Shown in pieces: positions 4,632 to 29,080 of a DNA stretch of 32,566 nt. Both the position numbers and the translations under genes were made by a program. The first letter of the stretch is position 1; the number at the start of each line of letters is the position of its first letter. This DNA comes from Methanolinea sp. (GTDB taxonomy: Archaea > Halobacteriota > Methanomicrobia > Methanomicrobiales > Methanospirillaceae), in assembly GCA_025453675.1 (NCBI GenBank), contig JALOPW010000022.1, positions 1-32,566 of the forward strand, written 5' to 3'. The notes under the pieces were generated by a model that was given only the letters and a program-made list of their open reading frames with translations, had not been told where the DNA came from and searched no databases.

Positions 4632-5924
4632 TTATTTCGGCTTGTAGTATCCCCATTTCTCCAGCGCCCGGGCAAGTTCGGGTGATGATCTGGCCTTCTC
4701 GTCGAGGCTCATCCCATCTCTCCAGGCCTCGATGGCCTGCATGGTGGCTATCGCCCCTGCACGTGTACCGCGGGGATGTCCGTGAATCCCCCCGCTCACC
4801 AGGAGCACGAGGTCCTCCCCGTAGATATCGAGGACGTCAGGGACCAGGCCGGGATGCAGGCCCCCGGAAGAAACCGGGAACGCACTCTTTATCCCTCCCC
4901 AGTCCTGGTCGAGGAGGGTGTGCCTGACCTCCTTTGTGTGCCGCTCCCGGAGCACATCCGCGAGCAGCGCAACCTCCTTCTTCGTCCCGGTCAGTTTTCC
5001 CACCGCGGTCCCGGTATGGATCTGGCTCACCCCGATAAGGCGCATCATCTTTGCCAGGAACTGCATCGTAATCCCGTGCCTGGGATTCCGGTCAAATGCA
5101 GCATGCATGGCCCGGTGGGCATGGATGGCCAGCCCGAGGTCCGAGCAGTAGTCCCGGAGCGTAGAGACCGCGGACGTCCCTGCCACCACCACGTCAATCA
5201 TCGCGTAGTTCCAGCCGCTGTCGGCGAGCATGCGGGCCCGCTCCTTCATGGTCTCCGTGTCCGCGGTGATGTTGATGAACGCAGATTTCGTATCGCCGGT
5301 TGCCTGCTCGGCCAGATCGCGCATCTTCGTCATCTCCGCAACACGGTCCCCGAACCGGTTGAACGAAGTGGAGGTAAGGTTCTCGTCGTCCTTCACGAAG
5401 TCAAACCCGCCCATCCATGTCTCAAACCCAATCGCGGCGTGTTCGCGGGCATCAAACCCCACTTTCGGCTTAGGGACTGCCCCGGTGAGAGGCCGGCCTT
5501 CTACCCTCATCATCCTCCGGATACCCTCCATGCCGAAGTGCGGGCCCCTGAAGTGCCTGATATATTCTGGCGGCATGCTCACGTCGATCAGCCGGAGGTT
5601 CCTGATCGCTTTCATCCCAAAGATATTGCCCGCGATGCCACTCATCAGCTGGGCAGCGTTCCCCTCCTCCCAGAGATCCAGCGGGTAGGCAATCCGCACA
5701 TACTTCCCCTCGATCTCGTAGACGGTGGCCTGGAGGTCCCTCATCCTGGGCGGGAGGGTGTGAAGCGTGGTCCATGTACCGGTGGAGCTCTCCGAGGCAA
5801 TCCTCCCAGCCGCCTCTTCGCTGCTGATGCCCGCTGCCGGCTCGAAATAAAAGAGTGCGCATAACTCAGTCTTCCCGGGATCGTACCCGGTATCCACGAA
5901 GTCCATGTACCAGTCGATTGCCAT
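4632..5924 (-). CDS. rbcL: Ribulose-1,5-bisphosphate carboxylase, archaeal form III-like
   Basis: A 430-residue RuBisCO large chain. All main catalytic elements are visible: GAVPKPKVGF (Lys152, Lys154), the carbamylation and metal site FDFVKDDEN (Lys178, Asp180, Glu181), HAHRAMHAAF (His270), loop 6 GTAVGKLTG (Lys310), VSSGGLHPG (Ser353) and a phosphate loop VSGGIHGHPRGTRAGA. In that loop Ser377 replaces the first Gly of the usual GGG triplet. Archaeal form III enzymes act in AMP salvage, and in some Methanomicrobiales a RuBisCO works with phosphoribulokinase in a cyclic pathway; no partner gene of either route is in the window. I chose ATG 5924 (MAIDWYMDF), preceded by AAAGGGA, over an upstream in-frame start that reads through the promoter. 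Confidence 0.93.
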   Translation of the reverse strand: MAIDWYMDFVDTGYDPGKTELCALFYFEPAAGISSEEAAGRIASESSTGTWTTLHTLPPRMRDLQATVYEIEGKYVRIAYPLDLWEEGNAAQLMSGIAGNIFGMKAIRNLRLIDVSMPPEYIRHFRGPHFGMEGIRRMMRVEGRPLTGAVPKPKVGFDAREHAAIGFETWMGGFDFVKDDENLTSTSFNRFGDRVAEMTKMRDLAEQATGDTKSAFINITADTETMKERARMLADSGWNYAMIDVVVAGTSAVSTLRDYCSDLGLAIHAHRAMHAAFDRNPRHGITMQFLAKMMRLIGVSQIHTGTAVGKLTGTKKEVALLADVLRERHTKEVRHTLLDQDWGGIKSAFPVSSGGLHPGLVPDVLDIYGEDLVLLVSGGIHGHPRGTRAGAIATMQAIEAWRDGMSLDEKARSSPELARALEKWGYYKPK

Positions 5925-5954
5925 GGGATATCCCTTTAGAGTAAGTGAGGGGGA

Positions 5955-6060
5955 TGCATAATAATGGTAAAGATAGTGCAAATCCGGGAGATAAGAGTGT
6001 CCCACAGGCACCATTATCCGAAAAGCATAAGTTCTGCCGGTTTTTTACTCTTCAGGTGGC
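5955..6060. promoter_or_regulatory. Divergent promoter region, RuBisCO and isocitrate-lyase-like gene
   Basis: On the minus strand, CCATTATTATGC (5956-5966) is a TATA-like box about 35 bases before the RuBisCO ATG, with AAAGGGA following. On the plus strand, AAAAGCATAA (6021-6030) is a TATA-like box with AGGTGG at 6054-6059 before the ATG at 6070. About 145 bases separate the two start codons, so one regulator could act on both genes. Confidence 0.4.
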
Positions 6061-6069
6061 GAACATTCC

Positions 6070-6939
6070 ATGAGACCTACCACCCGCTTGAGAGACCTGA
6101 TCTGTGCCGACCCGATCCTTGTCATCCCCGTAGTCCATGACCCGCTCTGTGCAAGGATTGCCGAGCAGGCAGGCTTCTCCGCCATCTTCTCGGCCGGTTA
6201 TGCGAACTCAGCCGCACTGCTGGGAAAGCCAGACGTCGGCCTGCTGACGCTCACCGAGATGGTCGACTGTGCCTCACGGATCGTGGATGCCACAGATATC
6301 CCGGTCTTTGCTGACGGTGACACGGGATACGGGAACACAACCAACGTGGCAAGGACCATATCCCTCTACGAGAAAGCGGGGGTGGCGGGGGTGTTCATCG
6401 AGGACCAGGTCTCGCCGAAACGGTGTGGGCACATGGAGGGGAAGGCGATTGTCACCCCGGAGGAGATGGTGGCAAAGGTCAGGGCTGCCGTCGATGCCAG
6501 GAGGGATCCGGATCTCGTCATCATGGCCCGGACCGATGCTATCGCCGTGAACGGGATCGATGATGCCGTCGAGCGGGCAAATCTCTACTACGAAGCGGGT
6601 GCAGACCTCACATTCGTGGAGGCCCCGGAATCTGTAGAGCAGATGCGGTGCATATGCCGCGATGTCAGGGGGCCGGCGTTCGCCAACATGCTCCCCGGGG
6701 GAAAGACACCCGTCCTCTCTGCCGCCGAACTGGAGAAGATAGGATATGCCGTGGTTGCCGACCCGGTCTCGTGTACCTACGCCATCGCAAAAGCGGTAAC
6801 CTACGTCTTCTCCGAGCTGAAAAGGACAGGATCTTCGGGGTCGTATCCCGATCACCTCATGGGATTCGATGAGTTCAACCACCTGGTGGGCTTGCCGGGG
6901 ATTCGGGAACGGGAGCGCTCCTATGGAGGGTGCCTCTGA
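6070..6939 (+). CDS. Isocitrate lyase/PEP mutase superfamily enzyme
   Basis: A 289-residue TIM-barrel of the ICL/PEPM superfamily, close in size to 2-methylisocitrate lyase and related C-C or P-C lyases rather than to full-length isocitrate lyase. Visible motifs are the metal-binding PVFADGDTGYGN (Asp82, Asp84), VFIEDQ (Glu111, Asp112), the signature KRCGHMEGK with catalytic-position Cys119, and VIMARTDA. The Cys in KRCGH is expected of true lyases and hydrolases and argues against a phosphonopyruvate mutase. The substrate is not determined by sequence: methylisocitrate, dimethylmalate, or oxaloacetate-like acids are possible. It is divergent from RuBisCO and followed by a long gene-free stretch. 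Confidence 0.87.
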   Translation: MRPTTRLRDLICADPILVIPVVHDPLCARIAEQAGFSAIFSAGYANSAALLGKPDVGLLTLTEMVDCASRIVDATDIPVFADGDTGYGNTTNVARTISLYEKAGVAGVFIEDQVSPKRCGHMEGKAIVTPEEMVAKVRAAVDARRDPDLVIMARTDAIAVNGIDDAVERANLYYEAGADLTFVEAPESVEQMRCICRDVRGPAFANMLPGGKTPVLSAAELEKIGYAVVADPVSCTYAIAKAVTYVFSELKRTGSSGSYPDHLMGFDEFNHLVGLPGIRERERSYGGCL

Positions 6940-13539: not shown

Positions 13540-16500
13540 TCACATGAAGTCCGCGAGGCCCATCTGCTGGCTCTTCTCCTGGCCGAAGGTGGACTCAATC
13601 GCCATGTCGAGCACCTGCACCCTCTGCCTGGTGTACTCCGACACCTTGTACTTTCTGCAAATGTCCCGGGACATCTCCAGGTACTTCTTGACAGAACCCT
13701 CGTGCACGGTGGGGATGATGTTCCCCCCGCAGCGGTTGCACTTGCCTGCAAGCGGCATGCGCCGGTAGCTCGTGTTGCACTTCACGCACCGGAACTTCTG
13801 CTTCGAGAACGCGGAGAGGTTCCCCTGGAGATCCCGGATGAAATGGGTGGTGAGGACCCGTTCGGCCACGTCGTCCTCGTCCACGGCCCTGATCTTCCCT
13901 GCAAGGGCCAGTTCTGCGTCAAGCTTCTCGATCATGCTCTTGAGCTGGGTGTAGGTGGACTCGAGCGGGCCTGCAGAGATGTCTCCCGTGTCGTGGGTGA
14001 ATAAGAACCCCTCCAGCTGGGCCGGGGTCCCAAGGCGCCTCCCTACCCGGTCCACCAGCCCCTCGACTTCTTTCGGGTGGGCATAGCGGAGGCTCGCCAG
14101 GTAGAGCTCCAGGGGATAGCGTGCCCCCACGTCAAGGTTATGGCTCTCCTTGTCGATCTCTGCAGGGTCGATACGGGTGGTGAGGACAAGCGGGGCGTCC
14201 ATGGTGCCCCCCCTGGTCTCGGGAAGGAACGAGCGGGAGAAGTTGATCAGCCCGTCCAACAGGAGCATGATGCAGTCCTCGTCCCCGTCGCACTGCCCTG
14301 TGAAGATGCCGTTTGCGAGCACGGTATGGTCCTCGGCCACGGTGAGGCAAAAGACCCTCTCTTCGGGTGCAGGCACGGTCTCCCTGCGCACGACGTGATC
14401 CGTGAGCACATTCGCACCGACCATCACCGGGACCGGGTCCCCCTCTTTCACCTCAACGGCCCGGATCTTTCGCAGGGAGCAGACATCCCAGACCAGCATG
14501 GCATGGTCGGGAGTCACCGCGATCTCCCGGCCCCCCCTTGTCTCGAAGCGGATCAGTGCCTGGGGAGATTTGTGGATGGAGACCGAGGTGACCCGCCTGA
14601 GGTGGGCCTTCCCCTCCCGGTCCACGGTACGCACGAGGATCGTTGACTGGGGATCAGAGTAATAGGTCCCGAGCCTGTCGATCCCCGGCCGGGAGAGGTC
14701 GAAATTCTCTGCCACCAGCTGCCGTATGGACCGGGTACACCAGTCCCGCCCATCGAAGGTCTCTATCTTTGTGTCACCGAAGAAGCAGTTCCTTCGCTTG
14801 GCTGCGTGGAAAAAGGGGTGGGCATACCCTACGTTCGCCCGGGAGAATCCCACGATCCGGGCCAGCACCCCGGCACTGGTGTGAGGAGCAAGCCCGATTG
14901 CCAGGTGACCGAGCAGGTCATCCCTGGTCTGCACCCGGTAAAAGGGGGGGAGCCCGTAACACTTCTCCAGCAGCTCGTCCAGGAACTGGGCAACCTTCAC
15001 CATGTAGTCAGCACAGGAGTCGGAGAGAAGGATGTCCTGGGCTTTGAGTTCCACCACCTGCGAGGGGGAGTGGAGAGGGTTGCCATGGATATCCTTCATG
15101 TACCCTAGTTCCCGGAGCCGCTCCGGCGATACCCCCACCTCATCAGGCCGTATATGCGTGAGGGGCAGGTCGATCATGTCGAACCGGATGGTGCCATCCT
15201 TGAAGACGAAGAGATCCTTTGCGGCCCGCAGAATCCCCTTCTCCATGGCCTCCACCGTCCTCTCCCGGGAGATGAGCCCCTTGACACCCTTCACCAGGGC
15301 AAGGCTGCTGTCCCGGATTCCCAGGCGTTCCATGGCCATCTGGTACTCCTGCTTCACGTTCAGGCTGGTGACCTGGGAGCAGACCAGTGGCGTATGGCAT
15401 ACCGGGCACTCCAGTCCCTGCTGTTCACGCTTGCAGCGGGGGCAGCTGTAGACGGGCTCGGTGTGCGCCCCGCATTCGCACCGGTTGCGATAGGTCTCAG
15501 CCCCGCAGGCGGGGCACCGCCTCCTTCCCGTCTCGATGCTGATCACACCGCCATCCATATTCGGCTGGGGTGCGTGGTTCGAGGCCTCCTGGAACGATCT
15601 GCGGGTACCTCCCGCCTCCCCCAGGGGGAACAGCCCATGTGGTGGTGGATTCATCTTCCTTGGCCGGGACTTCCCCGGCCTGCCCATGCGCCCCCCGATG
15701 CGGGTCCCGCCCCTGGACCGTATTTGGAACCCCGAGAGGTGGCTGACAAGGGCAAGCGGGTCATCCATGAGGGCACCTTGCCAGCAAGGCCGCTTTTTTA
15801 GCTTCAGATCGAGCCCGAGGCAGGCAAGGAAGAGGTAGTATTCGCTGATGCAGATCAGCCCCTCGCGCACCCGGTGGGGGAGCAGGATCTCCTCGAGCTT
15901 CTCCTTGATCCCGGGCCCGGGGGGCAGGACCAGGATACCATGCCTGATTTCCCCGGTGCGGGAGACCAGGTCCGCGAGATCTGCAATCTCCGCGCAGGTC
16001 AGGTCATCCCAGAGGCAGGTGAAGTCAGGGTGGAGGGGGACACCGTCAAAGCAGAGGGAGATGGCCTCTTCCTCGCTTGCGGGCTGCCCCGTCCCCCCTT
16101 CCTGGGACCACCACTCCTGGCAGTAGGCAGGAGGGACCAGGGGGTGGTTGTTCTCCAGGAACTCCCCGTAGGCGATCAGGATCTCCCCCACATCAAGGAT
16201 CCGCTCCACCTCCCCGGTCAAATCCCCTGCCACTGTTGCATCATCGATCCGCAGCACGTCCCCGCTCTTTAACCGGACGGTGGGGCCCTGGATGGTGTCC
16301 ACCGGGACGATTCCCGCGGCCTTTCCCGGGCGCTCGACTTTCATCTGGGTGCCAACTGCCAGGAAATCCCCGAGGATATGCATGGTCGCCGGGTTGAGAC
16401 CGGCGGCCGCGAATCCCGTGTTACGGGACCGACCGTAGCGCAACCGGAATCCGCCCTTCCTCATCGGGTAGGCGAAGACCGGGCGGCCGCCGATCAGGTC

Positions 16501-17406
16501 CCGCAGGTACTTGTCCTTTGGTTTGATGCCGGCCGCATCATCCCCATCGCTCCCTTTTGAGGCCCCGCTGATCAGCTCCTCCAGCCAGTCCCATCCATCC
16601 ATGGAGAGCGCCCGCACGTTCTTCAATACCTTCGGGGCCTTGAGGGCCAGGCCTTCAGCGAGGACAAGCGCCATCCCTCCCCGCACGGTGTTCGTCTCCA
16701 CCCGCTCAAGGTTCCGGTAACCGCTGACCTCCTCCTGCTCCGTTCCCTCCCCGTCGATACACACCGGGCAGTTCTGGACGATTAGCCGTATCTCGCGTTC
16801 CGACGGGAGGTACTGCAGGTTCATGATGGAGTTGTACTGGCGGATCTCCTCGATGTAGCGCTCCACCTCCTCCTGGCGGGGCAGATAGCGGTTCAGCCCG
16901 AGCGCTCTCCTGACAAAATCCCCCACCAGCACCGAGAGGGCCTGGGCGGTCCCCCCGGCACTCCTGATGGGCCCTGCATAATAGATCTTCAGGTACTCGC
17001 TGCCGTCATCATTCCTGCCAATACCCACTTTGGCAATCCCTTCTGTGGGGGCGGCGACGACCCCCTCCGTCAGCACGGCCATCGCAGTGCGGATGGCATG
17101 ATCCAGGATCTCCTCGTTGTTCTCCTCCCCGAACCGGCGCTGCACGAAGTCCTCGCCGATATGGAGCGCCACCTCCTCCCTGGACATCTCCCCTTCCATT
17201 TCCCTGATCCTGGCCGCAATGCCCCGGATCCCAAGGAGGGCCTCTACCCGGTCCGCGAGGTCGCTTGCGACCGGGATCTCCACGACGGTGCGGGGATCGA
17301 TCCCTGCCGCCCGGGCTCTCTCTGCCACAGCCATGGCTGCATTCAGCCCCTCCTGCAGTCCGGCCAGGTATTCCTCCATGGCCGTCGAGCACTGCAACAT
17401 CACCAT
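13540..17406 (-). CDS. polC: DNA polymerase D large subunit (DP2) containing a mini-intein
   Basis: The 1288-codon product is the catalytic subunit of the archaeal replicative polymerase PolD. After removal of a 165-residue intein (874-1038) the mature chain would have 1123 residues. It starts like other DP2 proteins ([43 protein letters not shown]). It has a central Cys-rich zinc cluster near 630-675 (CPACG, CECG, CPRC, CPVC), the active-site KRRN-CDGDED (Asp1040 and Asp1042 are the metal-binding pair) and a C-terminal zinc module (CVKC...CNRCGG, near 1205-1230). ATG 17406 fits the family start; a GTG at 17418 would add four residues. It needs the small subunit DP1, which is not in this window. 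Confidence 0.95.
14293..14787 (-). other. Mini-intein in DP2 (pol-II site), C-terminal Gly-Gln
   Basis: An in-frame 165-residue insert interrupts the catalytic motif NCDGDED. It begins with Cys1 in block A ([13 protein letters not shown]) and has block [10 protein letters not shown] with the T-x-x-H residues. It ends with block F/G ([23 protein letters not shown] region) followed by the +1 Cys of the extein. It is too short for a homing endonuclease and no LAGLIDADG motif is seen. The last residue is Gln rather than Asn and the penultimate is Gly rather than His. A Gln ending is known for DP2 inteins of Pyrococcus, and the P. horikoshii insert at the corresponding site has a similar size. Confidence 0.92.
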
Positions 17407-17512
17407 CTCAATTGCCACGGGGGGGTCTTATGGCTTCGGATGTACCGTCAGCCCCGCCAGCATGTATGACGACCAGGGACACGTCTTTTGTGAAAGGAAA
17501 GAAGTAGAGTGG

Positions 17513-18028
17513 TTATTTCCGCGTTTCATCCTCTACAGAGGAGAGCAGGGATGCTATGCCGCCCTGGCCCATCTGCCACAGGGTGAGCGTGGCGCACTCC
17601 CGCATCACCGGGTCGGGAGACCCGAGCATTGCCTGGATTTCCGGGATGGCAGGCTCGCCTATCCTGCACAGTGCCTGAGCCAGAAACCCCCTGGCACCTG
17701 GATCGGCGTCCTTCATCGCTTCCAAAAGAGGGGTCACCGCCGGTCTTCCCAGGTGCCCCAGGGCGGCAGCGGCATACCTCCGGAATGCCGTGTCAGTATT
17801 CCCTGATATGGCCTCTATCAGCGGCCCAATGCACGCAGTGCCTATCCTGACGAGGGCAACTGAAGCATACCACCGCACCTCGTTCTCCACAGGTTCCTGG
17901 AGGAGCCGGATCAGTGAAGGGATTGCTGATTCCCCCTTCTCTGCCAGCCTCCTGACCGCATCACGGCGGGTCGCGAGGGTTCCGTGGATGAGGGTCTCTG
18001 TCAGAGCGTGCATCTCAGGATCTTCCAT
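17513..18028 (-). CDS. HEAT-repeat protein downstream of MscS
   Basis: A 171-residue all-helical protein with about four HEAT/PBS-lyase repeats. Examples are TRRDAVRRLAEKGESAIPSL, EVRWYASVALVRIGTACIGP, AFRRYAAAALGHLGRPAVTP and GARGFLAQALCRIGEPAIPE. Its start overlaps the end of the MscS gene by 14 bases on the same strand, so the two are probably translated together. Family knowledge points to a soluble adaptor. I infer that it may bind the cytoplasmic cage of the channel or the DUF432-like protein, but nothing in the sequence proves a partner. Confidence 0.82.
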   Translation of the reverse strand: MEDPEMHALTETLIHGTLATRRDAVRRLAEKGESAIPSLIRLLQEPVENEVRWYASVALVRIGTACIGPLIEAISGNTDTAFRRYAAAALGHLGRPAVTPLLEAMKDADPGARGFLAQALCRIGEPAIPEIQAMLGSPDPVMRECATLTLWQMGQGGIASLLSSVEDETRK

Positions 18029-19693: not shown

Positions 19694-20908
19694 TCACCCG
19701 GATCTCTCCCCCTTCGTTCCGAGCTGGGAGAGTATCGCCTCTTTCGTCTCCTCATCGGCCTCTGCCAGGTGGGGGCGGAACCTCTCCAGGACTTTTCGAT
19801 CAGTCATCTCCCGCAGTGACTGGAGAGTGAGCGCCCGGACAGCAGGGCTGGAGAGCCGCAGATGAGCCAGGATGCGTGGAAATGCCTCGTCTCCAAGGCT
19901 CGGAAGCGCTTCGAGGGCGGCTGATCTGACCGAATCTTCCCGGTCATCCAGTGCCACTAAAAGGGGATCTATCGCCCCGGGATCCCCTATCTTCCCCAGC
20001 GCAAGGGCAGCACCCCTGCGGACGTCCGGACCTCCGCTCTCAAGGGCCACAATAAGTGGAGGGAGTCCCAAACTGCCGAACTGGCCCAGTGCATAGGCTG
20101 CCCTGCTCTGGACGAACCGGTCCTGGTCCTCAAGAAGGCTGATCAAAGGGGAGATGGCCCGAAAATCCCCGATCTCACCGAGTGCGATGGCTGCCTTCCA
20201 TCGTACGTCCTCGTCCGGGTGCCCGAGTGCCTGAATGAGGGGTCCCACTGAAGGTTCGCCGATCTGGGCCAGGGCCTCCGCCGCCTTCCACCGCACCCCC
20301 GAATAGCGGTCGCCGGTCAGGGCAGTCATGAGGGGGGGGACCGCCGATGGTTCCTTCAGCACCCCCAGTGCCTCTGCCGCTTCGTACTGGATCCCCGCAT
20401 CCCGGTGCCTGAGGGCCAGGATAAGCCCCTGTGTGTTTCTCTCCTCTTTCATTCTCTTCACATTGACTGAAGTCCGGAGCCGTGCCCTCCACTCATCCAG
20501 GTTTCCCCGGAACCCGCCCGCCGTGGACCCACTCAGGGCGGCGTTGGCTATCTGGGTCATCACCTGCTCCTGCTCCCTGTGCATGTAATCCATCACCACG
20601 CCAATGATGAGGGCCACCACGACGAACATCAGGGCCCGTATCATCGCATCGGTCTGCACGATACCGCTGATAAGGTAGTAGTCACCGGCATACACTACCG
20701 CAAGGAAGACCCCCACCAGCACAGCCCTTTTTCCGTACCAGATGGCCCCCAGTACCACAGGAATATAGAAGAAATGGGAGTAGACCACCTCGATTCCCAT
20801 CATGTGGTGCACGACCACTTCAAGGCCCACGGATACGGCCACCAGCAGGAGCAGGATGCCCAGCTTGTAGCGGTCTACCCGGTTCAGGTGAAGGTCCGAA
20901 AATGCCAT
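19694..20908 (-). CDS. Membrane-anchored HEAT-repeat protein
   Basis: A 404-residue two-part protein. Residues 15-110 form four membrane helices (LGILLLLVAVSVGLEVVVHH, YSHFFYIPVVLGAIWYG, VLVGVFLAVVYAGDYYLI, ALMFVVVALIIGVVM), of the kind used as an N-terminal membrane sensor in archaeal PAS kinases. After a linker, residues about 155-395 are HEAT/PBS-lyase repeats of about 31 residues each, seven to eight in number. Examples are AAEALGVLKEPSAVPPLMTAL, VRWKAAEALAQIGEPSVGPL and VRRGAALALGKIGDPGAIDPL. No enzyme domain is present. It could be a membrane-bound scaffold. It lies 106 bases upstream of the DUF432-mscS operon on the same strand. Confidence 0.87.
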   Translation of the reverse strand: MAFSDLHLNRVDRYKLGILLLLVAVSVGLEVVVHHMMGIEVVYSHFFYIPVVLGAIWYGKRAVLVGVFLAVVYAGDYYLISGIVQTDAMIRALMFVVVALIIGVVMDYMHREQEQVMTQIANAALSGSTAGGFRGNLDEWRARLRTSVNVKRMKEERNTQGLILALRHRDAGIQYEAAEALGVLKEPSAVPPLMTALTGDRYSGVRWKAAEALAQIGEPSVGPLIQALGHPDEDVRWKAAIALGEIGDFRAISPLISLLEDQDRFVQSRAAYALGQFGSLGLPPLIVALESGGPDVRRGAALALGKIGDPGAIDPLLVALDDREDSVRSAALEALPSLGDEAFPRILAHLRLSSPAVRALTLQSLREMTDRKVLERFRPHLAEADEETKEAILSQLGTKGERSG

Positions 20909-21103: not shown

Positions 21104-22288
21104 TCAGGGTACCCGGCCTGCTGCACGCCCGGTCGCCACGTCGATGCACTCCGCAGTGGTCCCCAGACGGACCGCTGCACCGCACATGTTCGGGATATAG
21201 GAGAACGCCTTCCCCGAGTTCACCATGATGGCCTGGAACCGCTCCATCGCAGGGGAGACCACCATGCAGGTATCTGAAAAGACCCTCGCCCCACTCTGCT
21301 CGATGGCCACAACCTCTCTGGGGTGCCGGGCCACGATCTCCCTGGCCGCAAACACGTAGACCGGGATCTGCACCTCTCTTCCTGCCAGCAGTTCCGCGAT
21401 GTGGGTGAGTTCTTCAGATGAACACTGCGGGCAGCCGAGCGCCACCGCCTCCACCGGTACCTCTCTCATGAGATCCGAGATCTCCTTATACTCAACGGGT
21501 ATTACTTCCAGTTCACTCGTCTGGTAATGGAAAATCCTGGCCTCGGGGGTGATGTCCTTCACGTGGAAGAGCGCAACTGCACCCGAGGCGGCCATGGCCG
21601 CCCCGAGCGATTTTAAATGGTCCTTCTTCGGCCGGATACCCTCGATCATGGGGATCCGGCTCCCCACCAGTTTCCCGGCATAATACCCGATTGCCCCGAG
21701 ATGAGCGGCGTCTGTCATGCGGGAGCCCTCCTCCACCCGGACCACTACCTGGGGCTCCCTGGCCGGGACGAGGTGGAGCCCATATTCGGGCGTCCTCCCG
21801 AGAATTGCCGCGGCGAGTGCACTCGGCCCACCCTCGCGGTTCGTCCTTGCCCCGATCACCGAATTTGCATATGCCACCGCTGATGACTCGGACCAGGCGA
21901 GGTGATCGCCGTACCTTGTAAGGTAGAGGTAGTAGGGGGTGCAGGTGCATTCCATGGCCACCCCCAGCCGCTGGTAGGCAGCGAGCACCTCCTCCTGAAG
22001 CCTGGCAAACTCAGGAGAGATCCCCATCTCCCTCCACCGGGACCTGTCCATGCCAACCGGATTGAGAACCGTGGGCACCGAGACTCTGGCGTCGAGGTGC
22101 TGCAGCCAGTCAAGGCCCCAGTGACCGATGGTCTTGTAGGATGCGCCACTCACCTGGGCGCTCCGGATGGGGATCAGGCGCGTTGCACCATAGACCTTCC
22201 CGAGCGCCACCAGGATCTCGAGCATCCTGGCCCGGGTCTCCCCTTCCTCCCCGGCGAGGATGGCTTCTTCTTCTGGTGAGAGGATCAT
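21104..22288 (-). CDS. Phosphomevalonate dehydratase large subunit (aconitase X family)
   Basis: A 394-residue AcnX catalytic subunit. In archaea this protein with its small DUF126-type partner dehydrates 5-phosphomevalonate to trans-anhydromevalonate 5-phosphate. Landmarks are GATRLIPIRSAQVSGASYKTIG, MECTCTPYY, WSESSAVAYANSVIGARTNREGG, and two late Cys motifs (ALGCPQCSSEE, FSDTCMVVSP) that with the first supply iron-sulfur ligands. The ATG lies 8 bases after the stop of the UbiD-like gene, so the two are co-transcribed. The substrate assignment rests on family and this pairing. The small subunit is not in the window. Confidence 0.9.
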   Translation of the reverse strand: MILSPEEEAILAGEEGETRARMLEILVALGKVYGATRLIPIRSAQVSGASYKTIGHWGLDWLQHLDARVSVPTVLNPVGMDRSRWREMGISPEFARLQEEVLAAYQRLGVAMECTCTPYYLYLTRYGDHLAWSESSAVAYANSVIGARTNREGGPSALAAAILGRTPEYGLHLVPAREPQVVVRVEEGSRMTDAAHLGAIGYYAGKLVGSRIPMIEGIRPKKDHLKSLGAAMAASGAVALFHVKDITPEARIFHYQTSELEVIPVEYKEISDLMREVPVEAVALGCPQCSSEELTHIAELLAGREVQIPVYVFAAREIVARHPREVVAIEQSGARVFSDTCMVVSPAMERFQAIMVNSGKAFSYIPNMCGAAVRLGTTAECIDVATGRAAGRVP

Positions 22289-22296
22289 GTCCGGAC

Positions 22297-23532
22297 CTAC
22301 CAGCCCGCTCTCAGGAACTCGTCTTCCCGGCCGAGGACCATGGTGGCGTCCACCCCCACTTTCACGTTGGTCCCGTCACCCAGCCGGCAGGGGTCGAGGG
22401 AGGACCCCCTGGCGCCGGTGACTACCATGATATCCTGGTCCCCCCGCACCCTGGTGGCCAGGGCAAACTCCACCTCCTCCGGGTCGGCAGGGTCGATGTC
22501 CTCGTCCACCACCACCACGTGCTTTAGGGAAGTATGGGCTGCGAACGCAGCCATGATGGCATTCTTGGCATCCCCCTGGGTGCTCTTTTTTATCTGGATC
22601 ACCGCGTGGAGATACCCGCACCCCCCGGTGGTCAGCACCACGTTCCTGGCCTCTGTCACCCCCGAGACCGCCCGGAAGATAACCGGCTCGTAGGGGACCC
22701 CCATCAGGATGCGGTGCTCGTTCCCTCCCGGGAGGATGCTATGGTAAATGCAGTCTTTTGCGGTATGCATCCCGGTGAACCGGATCACCGGCTGAATGCG
22801 GACACTGTCATACGTGCCGGTGATATCCACGAATGGCCCCTCCTCTGCAGTCTCTCTTCCTATGTACCCTTCAAGCACGATCTCTGCCTCCGGGACACGC
22901 ACCCCGTTCTGGCACTGGTGTACCCTTATCTCCCCTCCCAGCAGTTCGGCCGCGAAGGGGAGCTCCTTTCCCTTCGGGACACGGGTGCAGCTGGCAAAGG
23001 TCACCGCCGGGTGAACCCCGATTGCCACGGCCACGGGAAGCTCCTCTTCCCGTGAGAGGGCTTCCTGGTGCAGGGTGTAGGTATGCCGGCCCTCCACCAG
23101 CCTTGCCGCAACCCTTTCCCTGTCCAGGATGAGCATGCGGTGGATGGAGGCGTTCTCGACACCCTGGTAGCGGGAGAAGACGATCCCTGCAGTCAGGTAT
23201 TTTCCTGCATCTCCGGGGAAGAACTTCATGGCCGGGATCCGGGAGAGGTCCGCCCGGCCCATAGGGAGGTTCTCCTCCCTGACCACGCTCCCCTGGTAGG
23301 ATGCCCGTGAGAGGCGCATCCCCATCTCCTTCTCCTCCACCCCAAGCGCAAGGGAGAGCGCTTTCCTGGTGGCGGTGACATTCATCACTCCTCGGCCCCC
23401 GGAGAGGTGATGGAAGAAGAGGAGCGAATTGGTGGTACTGGCCATCTTCGGGGCATCAAATTCCCCGGAGGGCTGCTCCTCCACGTCGATGACTTCGGAT
23501 CGCTCCCTCATCAGTTCGATGAATTCACGCAT
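22297..23532 (-). CDS. UbiD-family decarboxylase, probable anhydromevalonate phosphate decarboxylase
   Basis: A 411-residue UbiD-type protein using prenylated FMN. Visible family stretches are LPMGRADLSRIPAMKFFPGDAGKY, SRYQGVENASIHRMLILDRE, AVAIGVHPAVTFAS, GPFVDITGTYD and the late KHVVVVDEDIDPADPEEVEFALATR. Paired with AcnX it should remove CO2 from trans-anhydromevalonate 5-phosphate to give isopentenyl phosphate, the archaeal mevalonate variant. I chose the ATG at 23532, 9 nt after GGAGG. The ATG at 23541 sits only one base after GGAGG, and the further upstream frame is unconserved-looking. A UbiX-type flavin prenyltransferase is required and not seen here. Confidence 0.9.
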   Translation of the reverse strand: MREFIELMRERSEVIDVEEQPSGEFDAPKMASTTNSLLFFHHLSGGRGVMNVTATRKALSLALGVEEKEMGMRLSRASYQGSVVREENLPMGRADLSRIPAMKFFPGDAGKYLTAGIVFSRYQGVENASIHRMLILDRERVAARLVEGRHTYTLHQEALSREEELPVAVAIGVHPAVTFASCTRVPKGKELPFAAELLGGEIRVHQCQNGVRVPEAEIVLEGYIGRETAEEGPFVDITGTYDSVRIQPVIRFTGMHTAKDCIYHSILPGGNEHRILMGVPYEPVIFRAVSGVTEARNVVLTTGGCGYLHAVIQIKKSTQGDAKNAIMAAFAAHTSLKHVVVVDEDIDPADPEEVEFALATRVRGDQDIMVVTGARGSSLDPCRLGDGTNVKVGVDATMVLGREDEFLRAGW

Positions 23533-23646
23533 TGGGGTCATGCCTCCCTTCCATGCGCTAAGGTGTGAGCTGCACTCTGATAAATCTACAAGCCCCCGTG
23601 GCACCCGCGATTCGCAATGCTATAAAAGGGAGCGCGCGGTGGGGGT

Positions 23647-25424: not shown

Positions 25425-26327
25425 ATGATCACCTTCCTCTCGGGGGGCACAGGGACCCCCAAGCTGATACGGGGGATGAGGCACCACCTGGCGGACCATG
25501 AGATCGCGGTGGTTGTCAACACCGCAGAGGACCTGTGGATAAGCGGGAACTTCCTCTCCCCCGATATCGATACCCTGATCTATCTCTTCAGCGGCACGCT
25601 TGATACCGATTCCTGGTGGGGGCTCAAGGGAGACACGTTCTCCACTCACCAGGAACTCGAACGCATGGGCGGTGATGAGTTCATCACCATCGGAGACAGG
25701 GATCGGGCCATCCATATCATGCGCGGGGAACTCCTCCGGAAGGGCATGACCCTTACCGCAACGACCGCACACCTCTGCACCTCCCTGGGAGTCGGGGCCC
25801 GGATCCTGCCGATGGCCGATACGCCGGTGGAGACCATCATCCGCACCGGGGGACGGGAGATCCACTTCCAGGAGTACTGGGTCAGTCACAGGGGCGCGCT
25901 CCCCATCGAGGAGGTCATCAGGAAGTGGGATGATCCCCCGTTTGCTACTCCCGATGTCCTCTCTGCCATACGGTCCGCCGAGGCGGTGATCATCGGGCCC
26001 AGCAATCCCATCACCAGCATTCTGCCCATCCTGGAATGCAGGGGGGTAAGAGAAGCTCTCCGGAAAGTCCCGGTGGTGGCGGTGAGCCCGTTCATCGGGG
26101 ATGCCCCGGTGAGCGGTCCTGCAGCGTCCCTGATGCGGGCCCGGGGATATCAACCCAACTCGGCAGCCACACGGGAACTCTACCATGAGTTTTTGGATCA
26201 CTTCATACAGGACTCCAGGGACCCGGTGGAGGTGACGGGGGCGATCCGCATGGACACGCTAATGAGCTCCCCGGGGGTTGACGCATCACTTGCATCCGCC
26301 ATCCTCTCGCTGATAAGAGGGGTGTGA
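25425..26327 (+). CDS. cofD: 2-phospho-L-lactate transferase (coenzyme F420 biosynthesis)
   Basis: CofD joins the activated lactyl (or related) phosphate to the deazaflavin Fo to make F420-0. The 300-residue protein starts MITFLSGGTGTPKLIRGM, the family nucleotide-binding loop, followed by VVVNTAEDLWISGNFLSPDIDT, the DRDRAIHI stretch, GVGARILPMAD, IIGPSNPITSILPIL and VAVSPFIGDAPVSGPA, all characteristic. No Shine-Dalgarno precedes the ATG, consistent with leaderless translation. F420 is essential for methanogenesis electron transfer, so this gene supports a methanogen host. No other cof gene is nearby. Confidence 0.95.
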   Translation: MITFLSGGTGTPKLIRGMRHHLADHEIAVVVNTAEDLWISGNFLSPDIDTLIYLFSGTLDTDSWWGLKGDTFSTHQELERMGGDEFITIGDRDRAIHIMRGELLRKGMTLTATTAHLCTSLGVGARILPMADTPVETIIRTGGREIHFQEYWVSHRGALPIEEVIRKWDDPPFATPDVLSAIRSAEAVIIGPSNPITSILPILECRGVREALRKVPVVAVSPFIGDAPVSGPAASLMRARGYQPNSAATRELYHEFLDHFIQDSRDPVEVTGAIRMDTLMSSPGVDASLASAILSLIRGV

Positions 26328-26407
26328 AGGGCGTTTTTTGTGGCCACCGGCAACGAAAAGGGTTTTTACCTGGTGGGGCAGACACACGTGGGAGGAACGG
26401 GACCCGA

Positions 26408-27673
26408 ATGAGCATCTTTCGATCACTCAAAGGGGCACTTGGAGGGGAGAGTGCGCACCATCTGGATGAAATGGAAAAGGAGCACATGGAGAGCGTGAAG
26501 AGGGCACTTGCCTATGGTGACGTGGAAGCCCGCTGGAATGCGATAAGAGCGGCGGGGGAGCTCGGGGATGCCTTCATCGACCCGCTCATCCATGCCCTGA
26601 ACGACGAGTACTGGATCGTCCGGAGGGGTGCAGGGGAGACCCTGGCCAGGATCGGCATCCCTGCGGTCCCCCCTCTCATCGAGATGCTGGGCAGCGAGGA
26701 TGACTCTGTCCGCCAGGAGGCCATGCGTGCCTGTGCACTCATCGGGGATCCCGCGGTGGATTCACTGATTCGGGCCCTTACCCGGGAAAACCCGGTAATA
26801 CGACAGGGCGCTGCGGAGATCCTGGGAGAGATGCAGATACAGACCGCAGTCGCTCCGCTGATCGAGACTCTGAAGGATAAGGACCCCGGGGTGAGGCGGG
26901 AGGCGGCGTCTGCCCTGAAGATGCTCGGGAACGAGGAGGCCACAGGCCCGCTCATCAGCCTCCTTGGCGACGAGTCCGGGTATGTGAGGATTGCTGCGGC
27001 GGAGGCGCTGTGTTCGCTCGGGACAAGGGCTATTGATCCACTGGTGAAGGCACTTGCCAGTCCCCAGCCCGAGATACGCCAGAGGGCGGGCCTCTCCCTG
27101 GCATCCATCGGCACCTCCGCCGTGGAGCCGCTCATTGCCGCACTCGGCCATGAGGAAGCCCCGGTCAGGCAGGGTGCCGCAGGGGTGCTGGGAAGAATTG
27201 GGGACCCGCGGGCTATCCCGGGACTGATACGTATCCTCGCGGATAAGGAGAGGACAGTACGGCAGGAAGGGGTACGGGCACTGGCAACCCTTGGATATCC
27301 TGCCATCACCCCCCTGGTGGCAGCCTTCAGGGAGGGTGACACCCTGGTGCGGTACTGCACCATGGAGGCATTATGGATCATAGGTGGCCCGGCTACACGT
27401 CCGCTGCTGGAACTCCTCTCTGACCAGAACTCGGAGGTCCGCAGGAGGACTGCTCTTTTGCTGGGGGAGATAGGTGATCCTGCCGCAGTGGAAGGACTCA
27501 CCCGGCTTTTGAGCGACCAGGTGCCTTCGGTCAGGAGGGAAGGTTTTGAAGCCCTGGAAAAGGTCAGGAAGGCACAGGGTGAGCCGCCCGGGGGTTCTCT
27601 CCAGCCTGCCCGGCAACCAGATCCCGACCTCGAGCGACAGGGGAACGGGAAGAAGAAGACCGGGTCCTGGTAA
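26408..27673 (+). CDS. Large HEAT-repeat protein
   Basis: A 421-residue protein made almost entirely of HEAT/PBS-lyase repeats of 31 residues, about eleven to twelve, from residue 35 to 385. Typical units are DVEARWNAIRAAGELGDAFI, SVRQEAMRACALIGDPAV, GVRREAASALKMLGNEEA and EVRRRTALLLGEIGDPAAVE. The short N-terminus (MSIFRSLKGALGG) is amphipathic and could touch the membrane. The C-terminus is Pro-rich and ends in a charged GNGKKKTGSW tail. No signal peptide or enzyme motif is seen. The ATG at 26408 gives the sensible N-terminus; the open frame before it reads an intergenic stretch. It is probably read in the same direction as cofD, 80 bases away. Confidence 0.87.
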   Translation: MSIFRSLKGALGGESAHHLDEMEKEHMESVKRALAYGDVEARWNAIRAAGELGDAFIDPLIHALNDEYWIVRRGAGETLARIGIPAVPPLIEMLGSEDDSVRQEAMRACALIGDPAVDSLIRALTRENPVIRQGAAEILGEMQIQTAVAPLIETLKDKDPGVRREAASALKMLGNEEATGPLISLLGDESGYVRIAAAEALCSLGTRAIDPLVKALASPQPEIRQRAGLSLASIGTSAVEPLIAALGHEEAPVRQGAAGVLGRIGDPRAIPGLIRILADKERTVRQEGVRALATLGYPAITPLVAAFREGDTLVRYCTMEALWIIGGPATRPLLELLSDQNSEVRRRTALLLGEIGDPAAVEGLTRLLSDQVPSVRREGFEALEKVRKAQGEPPGGSLQPARQPDPDLERQGNGKKKTGSW

Positions 27674-28429: not shown

Positions 28430-29080
28430 ATGCCATCACAGGAGAGACCATCTAACAGGGAAGAGGTAATTCTGGCCCTGAATGCAAAATTTGCGGTGAT
28501 ACGGAGGCTTTACGGAGTGAAGAAAATAGGGCTTTTCGGTTCCGTGGCCCGTGGTGAGGAGCGCCCTGAGAGTGATGTGGACATCGAGGTGGAATTTGAC
28601 GCGGGGATGGACTCCTACGAAAATTACATCGGTCTCTCCCTATACCTGGACGACCTCCTGGGGAAGCGGGTTGACCTGGTGATGTCACGGGTGCTGGCTT
28701 CCTACCTGCGCCCTGAACTGGGGGCCGAATTCGCGGCACTCAGCCGGGACAAGGTCTACCTGAACCAGATCCTTGACGAGATCACCTACCTGTCCCACCG
28801 CACCAGGGGAGTGACTGCACGCGATTTCCAGAAGGATGAGACCCTCCGCCGGGCGGTCACACGGAGCATGGAGATTATCGGCGAGTCGGCAGGAAGGATC
28901 TCTGATGCCTGCAGGCAGGATAAGGCGGCTATTCCCTGGAGGGAGCTGGAAGCCCTCAAGACCCGCCTGGTTCACCCCTACTTCTCTCCCGACTGGGGCC
29001 TCGTATGGAACGTGCTGAATGTATTCCTCCCCACCGTCGAGCCCGCCCTGCGAAAACTCCAGGCCCGGATAACACGGTGA
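28430..29080 (+). CDS. Fused MNT nucleotidyltransferase-HEPN protein (MntA-HepT-like)
   Basis: A 216-residue single chain joins two proteins normally encoded as a pair. Residues 15-100 are a minimal nucleotidyltransferase (GLFGSVARGEERPESDVDIEVEF: Gly37-Ser38, Asp49, Asp51; third acidic candidate Asp82 in KRVDLV). Residues 107-212 are a HEPN/DUF86 domain (RDKVYLNQILDEITYL, MEIIGESAGRISD, AIPWRELEALK). In the paired systems MntA adds AMP groups to a Tyr of the HepT R-x4-H-x-Y motif, blocking its RNase. Here the motif reads KTRLVHPY: His182 and Tyr184 are kept, but the motif Arg is Lys177. Whether it is still an RNase is unknown. AAGGAG lies 13 nt before the ATG. Confidence 0.85.
   Translation: MPSQERPSNREEVILALNAKFAVIRRLYGVKKIGLFGSVARGEERPESDVDIEVEFDAGMDSYENYIGLSLYLDDLLGKRVDLVMSRVLASYLRPELGAEFAALSRDKVYLNQILDEITYLSHRTRGVTARDFQKDETLRRAVTRSMEIIGESAGRISDACRQDKAAIPWRELEALKTRLVHPYFSPDWGLVWNVLNVFLPTVEPALRKLQARITR

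Follow-up and report, generated by a model that had tools for sequence, protein, structure and literature searches.

A Gly-Gln-ending mini-intein splits the PolD catalytic loop in most Methanomicrobiales genomes

The stretch of DNA analysed here (the window; 32,566 nucleotides of contig JALOPW010000022.1, Methanolinea sp.) contains a 1292-residue open reading frame on the minus strand (13540-17418) that encodes DP2, the large subunit of PolD, and encloses an intein. Read on the minus strand from 14787 to 14293, the intein is exactly 165 residues long (CFFGDTK...ANGIFTGQ). A sequence-only reading of this DNA had placed an intein at 14293-14787 and gave no strand; the plus-strand frame from 14293 contains a stop. 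The extein flanks are ...HAAKRRN before and CDGDED after, so that the insertion splits the PolD catalytic loop. The intein has Cys at residues 1, 17, 103 and 147, His at residues 62, 72, 95, 131 and 154, and Thr at residue 163. The parts of the gene are given below, with the segments that we take to be blocks A, B, F and G.

13540..17418, minus strand: DP2 (PolD large subunit) precursor gene; open reading frame with Pfam and NCBIfam PolD matches, 1292 codons from the listed GTG, a putative start
14788..17418, minus strand: N-extein ending ...AAKRRN (translation)
14293..14787, minus strand: intein, 165 residues, Cys1 to Gln165 (translation, profiles, relatives, fold model)
14749..14787, minus strand: block A, residues 1-13, with nucleophile Cys1 (Cys1 in 80/80)
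14737..14739, minus strand: Cys17 codon, not conserved (7/104)
14491..14532, minus strand: block B, residues 86-99, with Thr92 and His95 (both 80/80)
14479..14481, minus strand: Cys103 codon, not conserved (25/104)
14395..14421, minus strand: residues 123-131, homing endonuclease position in relatives (alignment, and LAGLIDADG_3 in long relatives)
14311..14358, minus strand: block F, residues 144-159, with Cys147 and His154 (each in 107/107 order inteins)
14293..14310, minus strand: block G, residues 160-165, ending Gly164-Gln165 (107/107)
13540..14292, minus strand: C-extein, first residue Cys+1 of CDGDED (translation)
14275..14292, minus strand: CDGDED motif with the catalytic aspartates (motif search; D956/D958 in P. 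abyssi, PMC4996933)

The G+C content is 0.63 both in the insert and in the remainder of the DP2 gene. The genome assembly (94% complete) has a single DP2 locus, whose profile match falls into two pieces joining at the insert. The one Pfam intein match in the assembly is the window insert itself, below cut-off, and weaker inteins elsewhere in the genome could escape this search. Several other genes in the window carry recognizable domains. A RuBisCO large chain with N-terminal and catalytic domains (4632-6014, minus strand) adjoins a gene of the PEP-mutase/isocitrate-lyase family (6070-6939), and an aconitase X family protein (21104-22288) adjoins a UbiD-family protein (22297-23604), both on the minus strand; the latter pair (21104-23604) is one known from the archaeal modified mevalonate pathway. 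A single open reading frame at 28430-29080 (plus strand) joins a nucleotidyltransferase domain (residues 24-89) and a HepT-like domain (residues 114-209), which are usually separate genes of a toxin-antitoxin pair. A HEAT-repeat protein was identified by domain search at 19694-20908 (minus strand), and putative further ones by eye at 26324-27673 (plus strand) and 17513-18028 (minus strand).

The match to Pfam PolC_DP2_cat is broken into two pieces at the insertion point. The NCBIfam models intein_Nterm and intein_Cterm match the insert (E values of 2e-12 and 7e-5, respectively), and the Pfam Intein_splicing match lies just below its cut-off (33.9 vs 35.8 bits). The Pfam/NCBIfam profile search reported no LAGLIDADG domain in the window insert, and the aligned window intein is gapped where long relatives carry their endonuclease domain, as befits a mini-intein. 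The NCBI PolD model PRK14714 spans the insert with match positions 932-1100, and intein-bearing proteins were thus evidently used in building it. An AlphaFold2 model built on 20 sequences from Methanomicrobiales (hereafter the order; pLDDT 92.1, pTM 0.86) displays the HINT fold: it has 66 PDB matches at E ≤ 0.001, the best ones being inteins, and its top match is the Pol-II intein of P. horikoshii at the same site (7oec; TM 0.90, rmsd 1.7 Å). Among solved structures, the order profile matches the Pab polC intein best by sequence (2lcj, E value 3e-13). With the splice signatures described below, these results bear out the sequence-only reading in its claims that an intein lies at exactly these coordinates, that it has no endonuclease, and that it splits the catalytic motif of PolD.

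Scanning the contigs of named genomes yielded 89 confirmed relatives, of which 80 were kept. The 79 full-length ones are all 165 residues long and end in Gly-Gln, an agreement in length and ending that excludes chance. The N-terminal flank is AAKRRN in 78 relatives and ASKRRN in one, and the C-terminal flank is CDGDEDC followed by Ile or Val in all 79. Eight residues are identical in 80/80 rows (window included): Cys1, His72, Thr92, His95, Cys147, His154, Gly164 and Gln165. Both class 1 nucleophiles are therefore in place, Cys1 in every row and Cys+1 in all 79 relatives, as are the block B residues Thr92 and His95. Class 3 inteins have no Cys1 or Ser1 and are defined by a Trp-Cys-Thr triad; this class was rejected, given the presence of Cys1 and a Met at position 97 in 80/80 rows, with only Cys147 and Thr163 in agreement. 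The usual class 1 penultimate His and C-terminal Asn are replaced by Gly164-Gln165, as had been read from the sequence. Inteins that lack the penultimate His, or that end in Gln or Asp, can splice (PMC4031507), and the ending does not therefore exclude class 1 membership. The insertion point in DP2, between Asn and Cys of AAKRRN/CDGDED, is that of the pol-IIa allele, an assignment that rests on the listing of Pho, M. marisnigri and Methanolinea in PMC4071816.

Conservation extends well beyond the named genomes. In all, 180 records were read (179 loci and the window), four of which have no readable site (L077, L108, L109 and L161). The named-genome set plus loci from further genomes gives 107 distinct order inteins, with lengths of 165 residues in 104, 166 in two and 164 in one. 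All 107 end in Gly-Gln and have Cys and His at the Cys147 and His154 positions, and two more divergent order inteins of 166 residues each likewise end in Gly-Gln. The intein is present in 187 of 232 order genomes, 119 of 135 good ones, and 37 of 40 genus codes. CDGDED was found in 210 of the 232 genomes by an exact degenerate pattern, preceded by Gly-Gln in 184 and by Arg-Asn (the empty site) in 26; the sets are disjoint and leave no remainder. The ending had been called unusual, which holds with respect to the His-Asn norm and not within the order, where it is the only one found (184 genomes); this makes it a maintained state, not decay. Three intein genomes lack the pattern, two with partial matches (residues 1-107 and 1-45) and one with a broken copy. 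They are among the 22 order genomes without the motif, 18 of which are less than 90% complete; two others have partial DP2 matches that stop short of the site. The broken copy (G104:C6:16539-17038; L205, L212), from an assembly that is 59% complete, is interrupted by a frameshift and by a TGA, possibly through an assembly error. One further assembly (G005; L200, L210) holds two loci with different inteins of the DP2-site kind, perhaps from two organisms in one bin.

The intein is under purifying selection much like that on its host DP2, and is slightly less constrained. By the Nei-Gojobori method (84 rows, 553 pairs), pairwise dN/dS comes to 0.24 in the intein against 0.25 across 480 flanking DP2 codons, a rough count at the high dS of these pairs (median about 0.8), and dN in the intein is 1.4 times that of flanking DP2. 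Columns that are at least 98% invariant number 35/165 in the intein, and 87/290 and 71/180 in the flanks.

Path lengths of intein and DP2 across 89 order rows correlate with r 0.83 and a slope of 0.96, a value as high as which was reached in 0/999 permutations. For 15 of the 89 inteins the nearest intein neighbor lies outside the five nearest DP2 relatives, and eight of these fall in the clade holding Methanoculleus; some exchange of inteins may have taken place within the order despite co-inheritance. In a 48-row tree of DP2-site inteins the 15 order rows form one clade (100/100, stem 0.84). The 26 empty sites belong to 23 genomes of genus code g25 and three of g38; g25 comprises 25 genomes, and the remaining two gave no DP2 match. 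The pol-IIa empty-site sequence AAKRRNCDGDED is found in the 26 loci, and all translate as AAKRRNCDGDEDCVML without a scar.

A DP2 tree computed without the intein (110 rows, 13 of them intein-free; a quick LG+G4 tree with open forks in its backbone) requires two changes of the presence label, forced by its starred branches, and the empty sites need two intein losses as counted on this tree. One intein-free clade is sister to an intein-bearing genus code of its family, and the other groups with members carrying the intein from its own genus code and one from g35. Because the intein-free genes stand beside intein-bearing relatives of their genus or family, the view that the empty sites arose when the entire DP2 gene was replaced laterally was rejected; local recombination with an intein-free allele is possible. 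Both intein-free clades (L163-L165; L084, L085, L087-L090, L102, L103, L166 and L167) have long stems, with 0.37 and 0.47 changes per site, which would suggest that the polymerase evolved faster around the losses.

Outside the order, other Halobacteriota inteins at the same DP2 site share the flanks of the window intein, and all 29 that were first read (20, then nine further) end in Gln. They differ in length (175-213 or 474-529 residues) and in the penultimate residue, which varies and is His in none of the 29. Among the first 20, this residue is Gly in nine, Ala in six, Lys in two, and Ser, Gln and Arg in one each; 13 have 175-183 residues and seven have 474-513. LAGLIDADG_3 was found in the four long inteins tested and was absent from two short ones. 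In a sample of the phylum, 191 of 196 genomes have the motif, preceded by Gln in 63 (33 of these in the order). The Arg-Asn pattern occurs in 118, two of which are really Ser-Asn intein ends, the other sites outside the order having been counted by pattern. Four of the ten remaining genomes were read, giving three Ser-Asn ends and one Asp end; G262, G282, G331, G350, G354 and G356, with neither Gln nor Arg-Asn, were left out. At least five DP2-site inteins thus end in Asn and one in Asp, and those with a readable start have 449-500 residues. These inteins of other families (L215-L220; five Ser-Asn, one Asp) begin with CLPP, CLPS, CLAP or CLHP where the start is readable, and one further 451-residue intein at the site (L222, genome G283) ends in His-Gln, like that of Pyrococcus horikoshii.

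Since Asn and Asp ends occur at the same site, the idea that the site imposes Gln was rejected; Gln is a trait fixed in Methanomicrobiales and common beyond it, not a rule of the site. A general habit of these genomes was likewise rejected, as Asn is the last intein residue at all 12 junctions found at other sites, and His precedes it in 11. These junctions, which represent about six independent sites (several being one site in different genomes), come from eight of 20 stretches; nine others are the same DP2 site and three gave none.

Among the Methanomicrobiales in which Soucy 2014 lists the pol-IIa intein are Methanolinea tarda and Methanoculleus marisnigri (PMC4071816). The M. tarda intein (WP_007314808), compared here by this table listing, has the same allele name (DP2, pol-IIa) and a mini-intein star, and comes from the genus of the nearest named relatives of the window. 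Stars are also given to Methanoculleus but not to Methanoregula boonei or Methanofollis liminatans, at odds with the full-length inserts read within the order, all of which are 164-166 residues long. The authors argue that purifying selection maintains mini-inteins, since only precise deletion or replacement can remove them, and they interpret pol-IIa in Halobacteria as an early invasion (PMC4071816). The M. marisnigri Pol II intein (Nicastri et al. 2013) is of the same allele (PMC4071816) and order, and has a C-terminal Gln (PMC4031507); the named Methanoculleus inteins end in Gly-Gln, like the window intein. The Pol-II mini-inteins of P. horikoshii and P. abyssi (7oec/5bkh and 2lcj) share its Gln ending and fold, and their site, with C-extein CDGDED and N-extein ...AAKRN in assay constructs (PMC8175363). 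The earlier statement that Gln-ending Pyrococcus DP2 inteins are documented is thus correct (PMC8229266, PMC8175363). They differ in having a penultimate His, in the Ser at position F:4 of Pab, and in being hyperthermophilic with temperature-dependent splicing; 7oec is 28% identical to the window intein.

Taken together, the insert is very probably the form that the known pol-IIa intein takes in Methanomicrobiales, an inherited class 1 mini-intein that must excise for PolD to work. It looks like an element ordinary in identity, old and of a known kind, neither new nor broken. The homing endonuclease was probably lost before the order radiated, the intein having since been inherited with the polymerase gene. 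By the chemistry of the family, Cys1, aided by Thr92 and His95, would accept the N-extein from Asn(-1) and pass it to Cys+1. Gln165 would then cyclize to a glutarimide with the assistance of block F His154, and rearrangement of the thioester would yield ...RRN-CDGDED.... With Gly164 in place of the penultimate His, His154 is the natural candidate for the helper. In the Pho intein, the distance between block F His154 and the Gln carbonyl is 3.4 Å; the authors of that study propose that this His activates cyclization, yet may also hold the side-chain in a less reactive state (PMC8229266). Cyclization of Gln is the expected slow step: in both the Pab and the M. marisnigri Pol II intein, splicing is slow with Gln and improves with Asn (PMC4031507). 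Slow or conditional splicing of the window intein is suggested by these relatives only.

The catalytic loop of P. abyssi DP2 holds an intein site, and D956 and D958 of this loop are critical for polymerase activity (Sauguet 2016, PMC4996933). PolD was the only essential polymerase in deletion studies of two archaea (PMC4065339). The PolD of the window organism would be inactive before splicing.

The sequence-only reading had proposed redox effects through Cys17 and Cys103, with a possible contribution from Cys147. The first proposal is not supported, and a redox pair of Cys17 and Cys103 was rejected as poorly conserved and unlikely to be a shared switch: among the 104 order inteins of 165 residues, Cys17 occurs in seven and Cys103 in 25 (Cys103 accompanies Cys17 in six of these seven, a raw count that ignores relatedness). 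Cys147 is invariant and a better candidate partner for Cys1 than those residues are; only Cys1 and Cys147 occur in all 104. The activity of the M. marisnigri Pol II intein depends on an internal disulfide, and Pab has a disulfide between Cys1 and Cys+1 (PMC3922620). The Pab F:4 side-chain lies 2.7 Å from Cys1 (PMC8175363). In each of the 13 named Methanoculleus inteins, Cys is confined to positions 1, 147 and 163; if M. marisnigri shares these, its disulfide would use two of the three, of which the window intein, with Thr163 and its own Cys17 and Cys103, has only 1 and 147. By this analogy, a bond between Cys1 and Cys147 is the best redox candidate. The excerpts of PMC6195587, PMC6805012, PMC7765530 and PMC10663303 hold no further detail on this intein.

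Two readings conflict with an inherited, splicing intein. That it was recently acquired or is still mobile is very improbable: endonuclease-bearing relatives do occupy the same site elsewhere in the phylum, and some intein neighbors mismatch those of DP2, but no endonuclease-sized copy was found among the order inteins read, which form one clade and reach 37 of 40 genus codes. Slightly less probable still is a dead insert that no longer splices and persists as a DP2 domain. The atypical ending and the Pfam score just below cut-off might be taken to favor it, against which stand the invariant splice residues, the dN/dS of 0.24, the exact loss in 26 genomes, the single DP2 copy, and an insertion point between Asn and Cys of the catalytic loop.

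How the Gln came to be kept is a more balanced question. About an even chance can be given to a frozen ending, retained with no benefit from slow splicing only because the change from Gln (CAR) to Asn (AAY) needs two substitutions, whose intermediates, Lys or His, cannot splice and would kill PolD. The order inteins use CAG (102) or CAA (five) in all 107 cases, in-between codons were not seen at this position in the order, and the intein is otherwise under ordinary purifying selection. Asn- and Asp-ending inteins, however, occupy the same site in other families and sit beside Gln-enders in the tree, so that a change of ending seems possible over long times; they may also have arrived separately, which limits the argument from the tree. 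The two-base barrier alone could freeze Gln165, and selection for slow splicing could too. It is unlikely, on present evidence, that Gln165 and Cys147 are kept as a selected brake, in which splicing that is slow and sensitive to redox state would help to time or withhold PolD, for instance after oxygen exposure. A Cys1-Cys147 disulfide would block the first step, Cys147 and Gly-Gln are each found in 107/107, and the slowing by Gln, the dependence on a disulfide, the proximity of F:4 to Cys1 and the cysteines shared by Methanoculleus, all described above, fit such a role. But many inteins carry Cys at F:4 for catalytic reasons, only Asp being commoner there (PMC4031507), and the invariance of Cys147 is therefore not specific to a switch. 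Moreover, the window intein lacks Cys163, the Methanoculleus data were obtained with foreign exteins, either in E. coli or in vitro, the intein is altogether gone from two lineages, and the literature consulted, in the parts available, offers no in vivo evidence.

Inteins are usually described as sporadic. The unusual feature here is the completeness of fixation in the order together with the loss record: a mini-intein of almost constant length lies at the PolD active site in 184 of 210 readable order genomes. Titles and the beginnings of abstracts, in a collection with few subscription papers, mention neither order-wide fixation, nor an invariant Gly-Gln, nor two losses, which is a weak negative. 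It is tempting, if rather improbable, to see in the invariance of Cys1, Cys147 and Gly-Gln the mark of a domesticated intein acting as an oxygen-sensitive brake on PolD maturation; if so, most methanogens of the order would couple DNA replication to the redox state of the cytoplasm through protein splicing. The order-wide ending slows splicing in the two relatives tested (PMC4031507). Whether slow Gln-dependent splicing is favored by selection or is just trapped, and what changed when two lineages lost the intein, are testable questions, for which the loss beside intein-bearing members of the same genus code provides a ready natural control.
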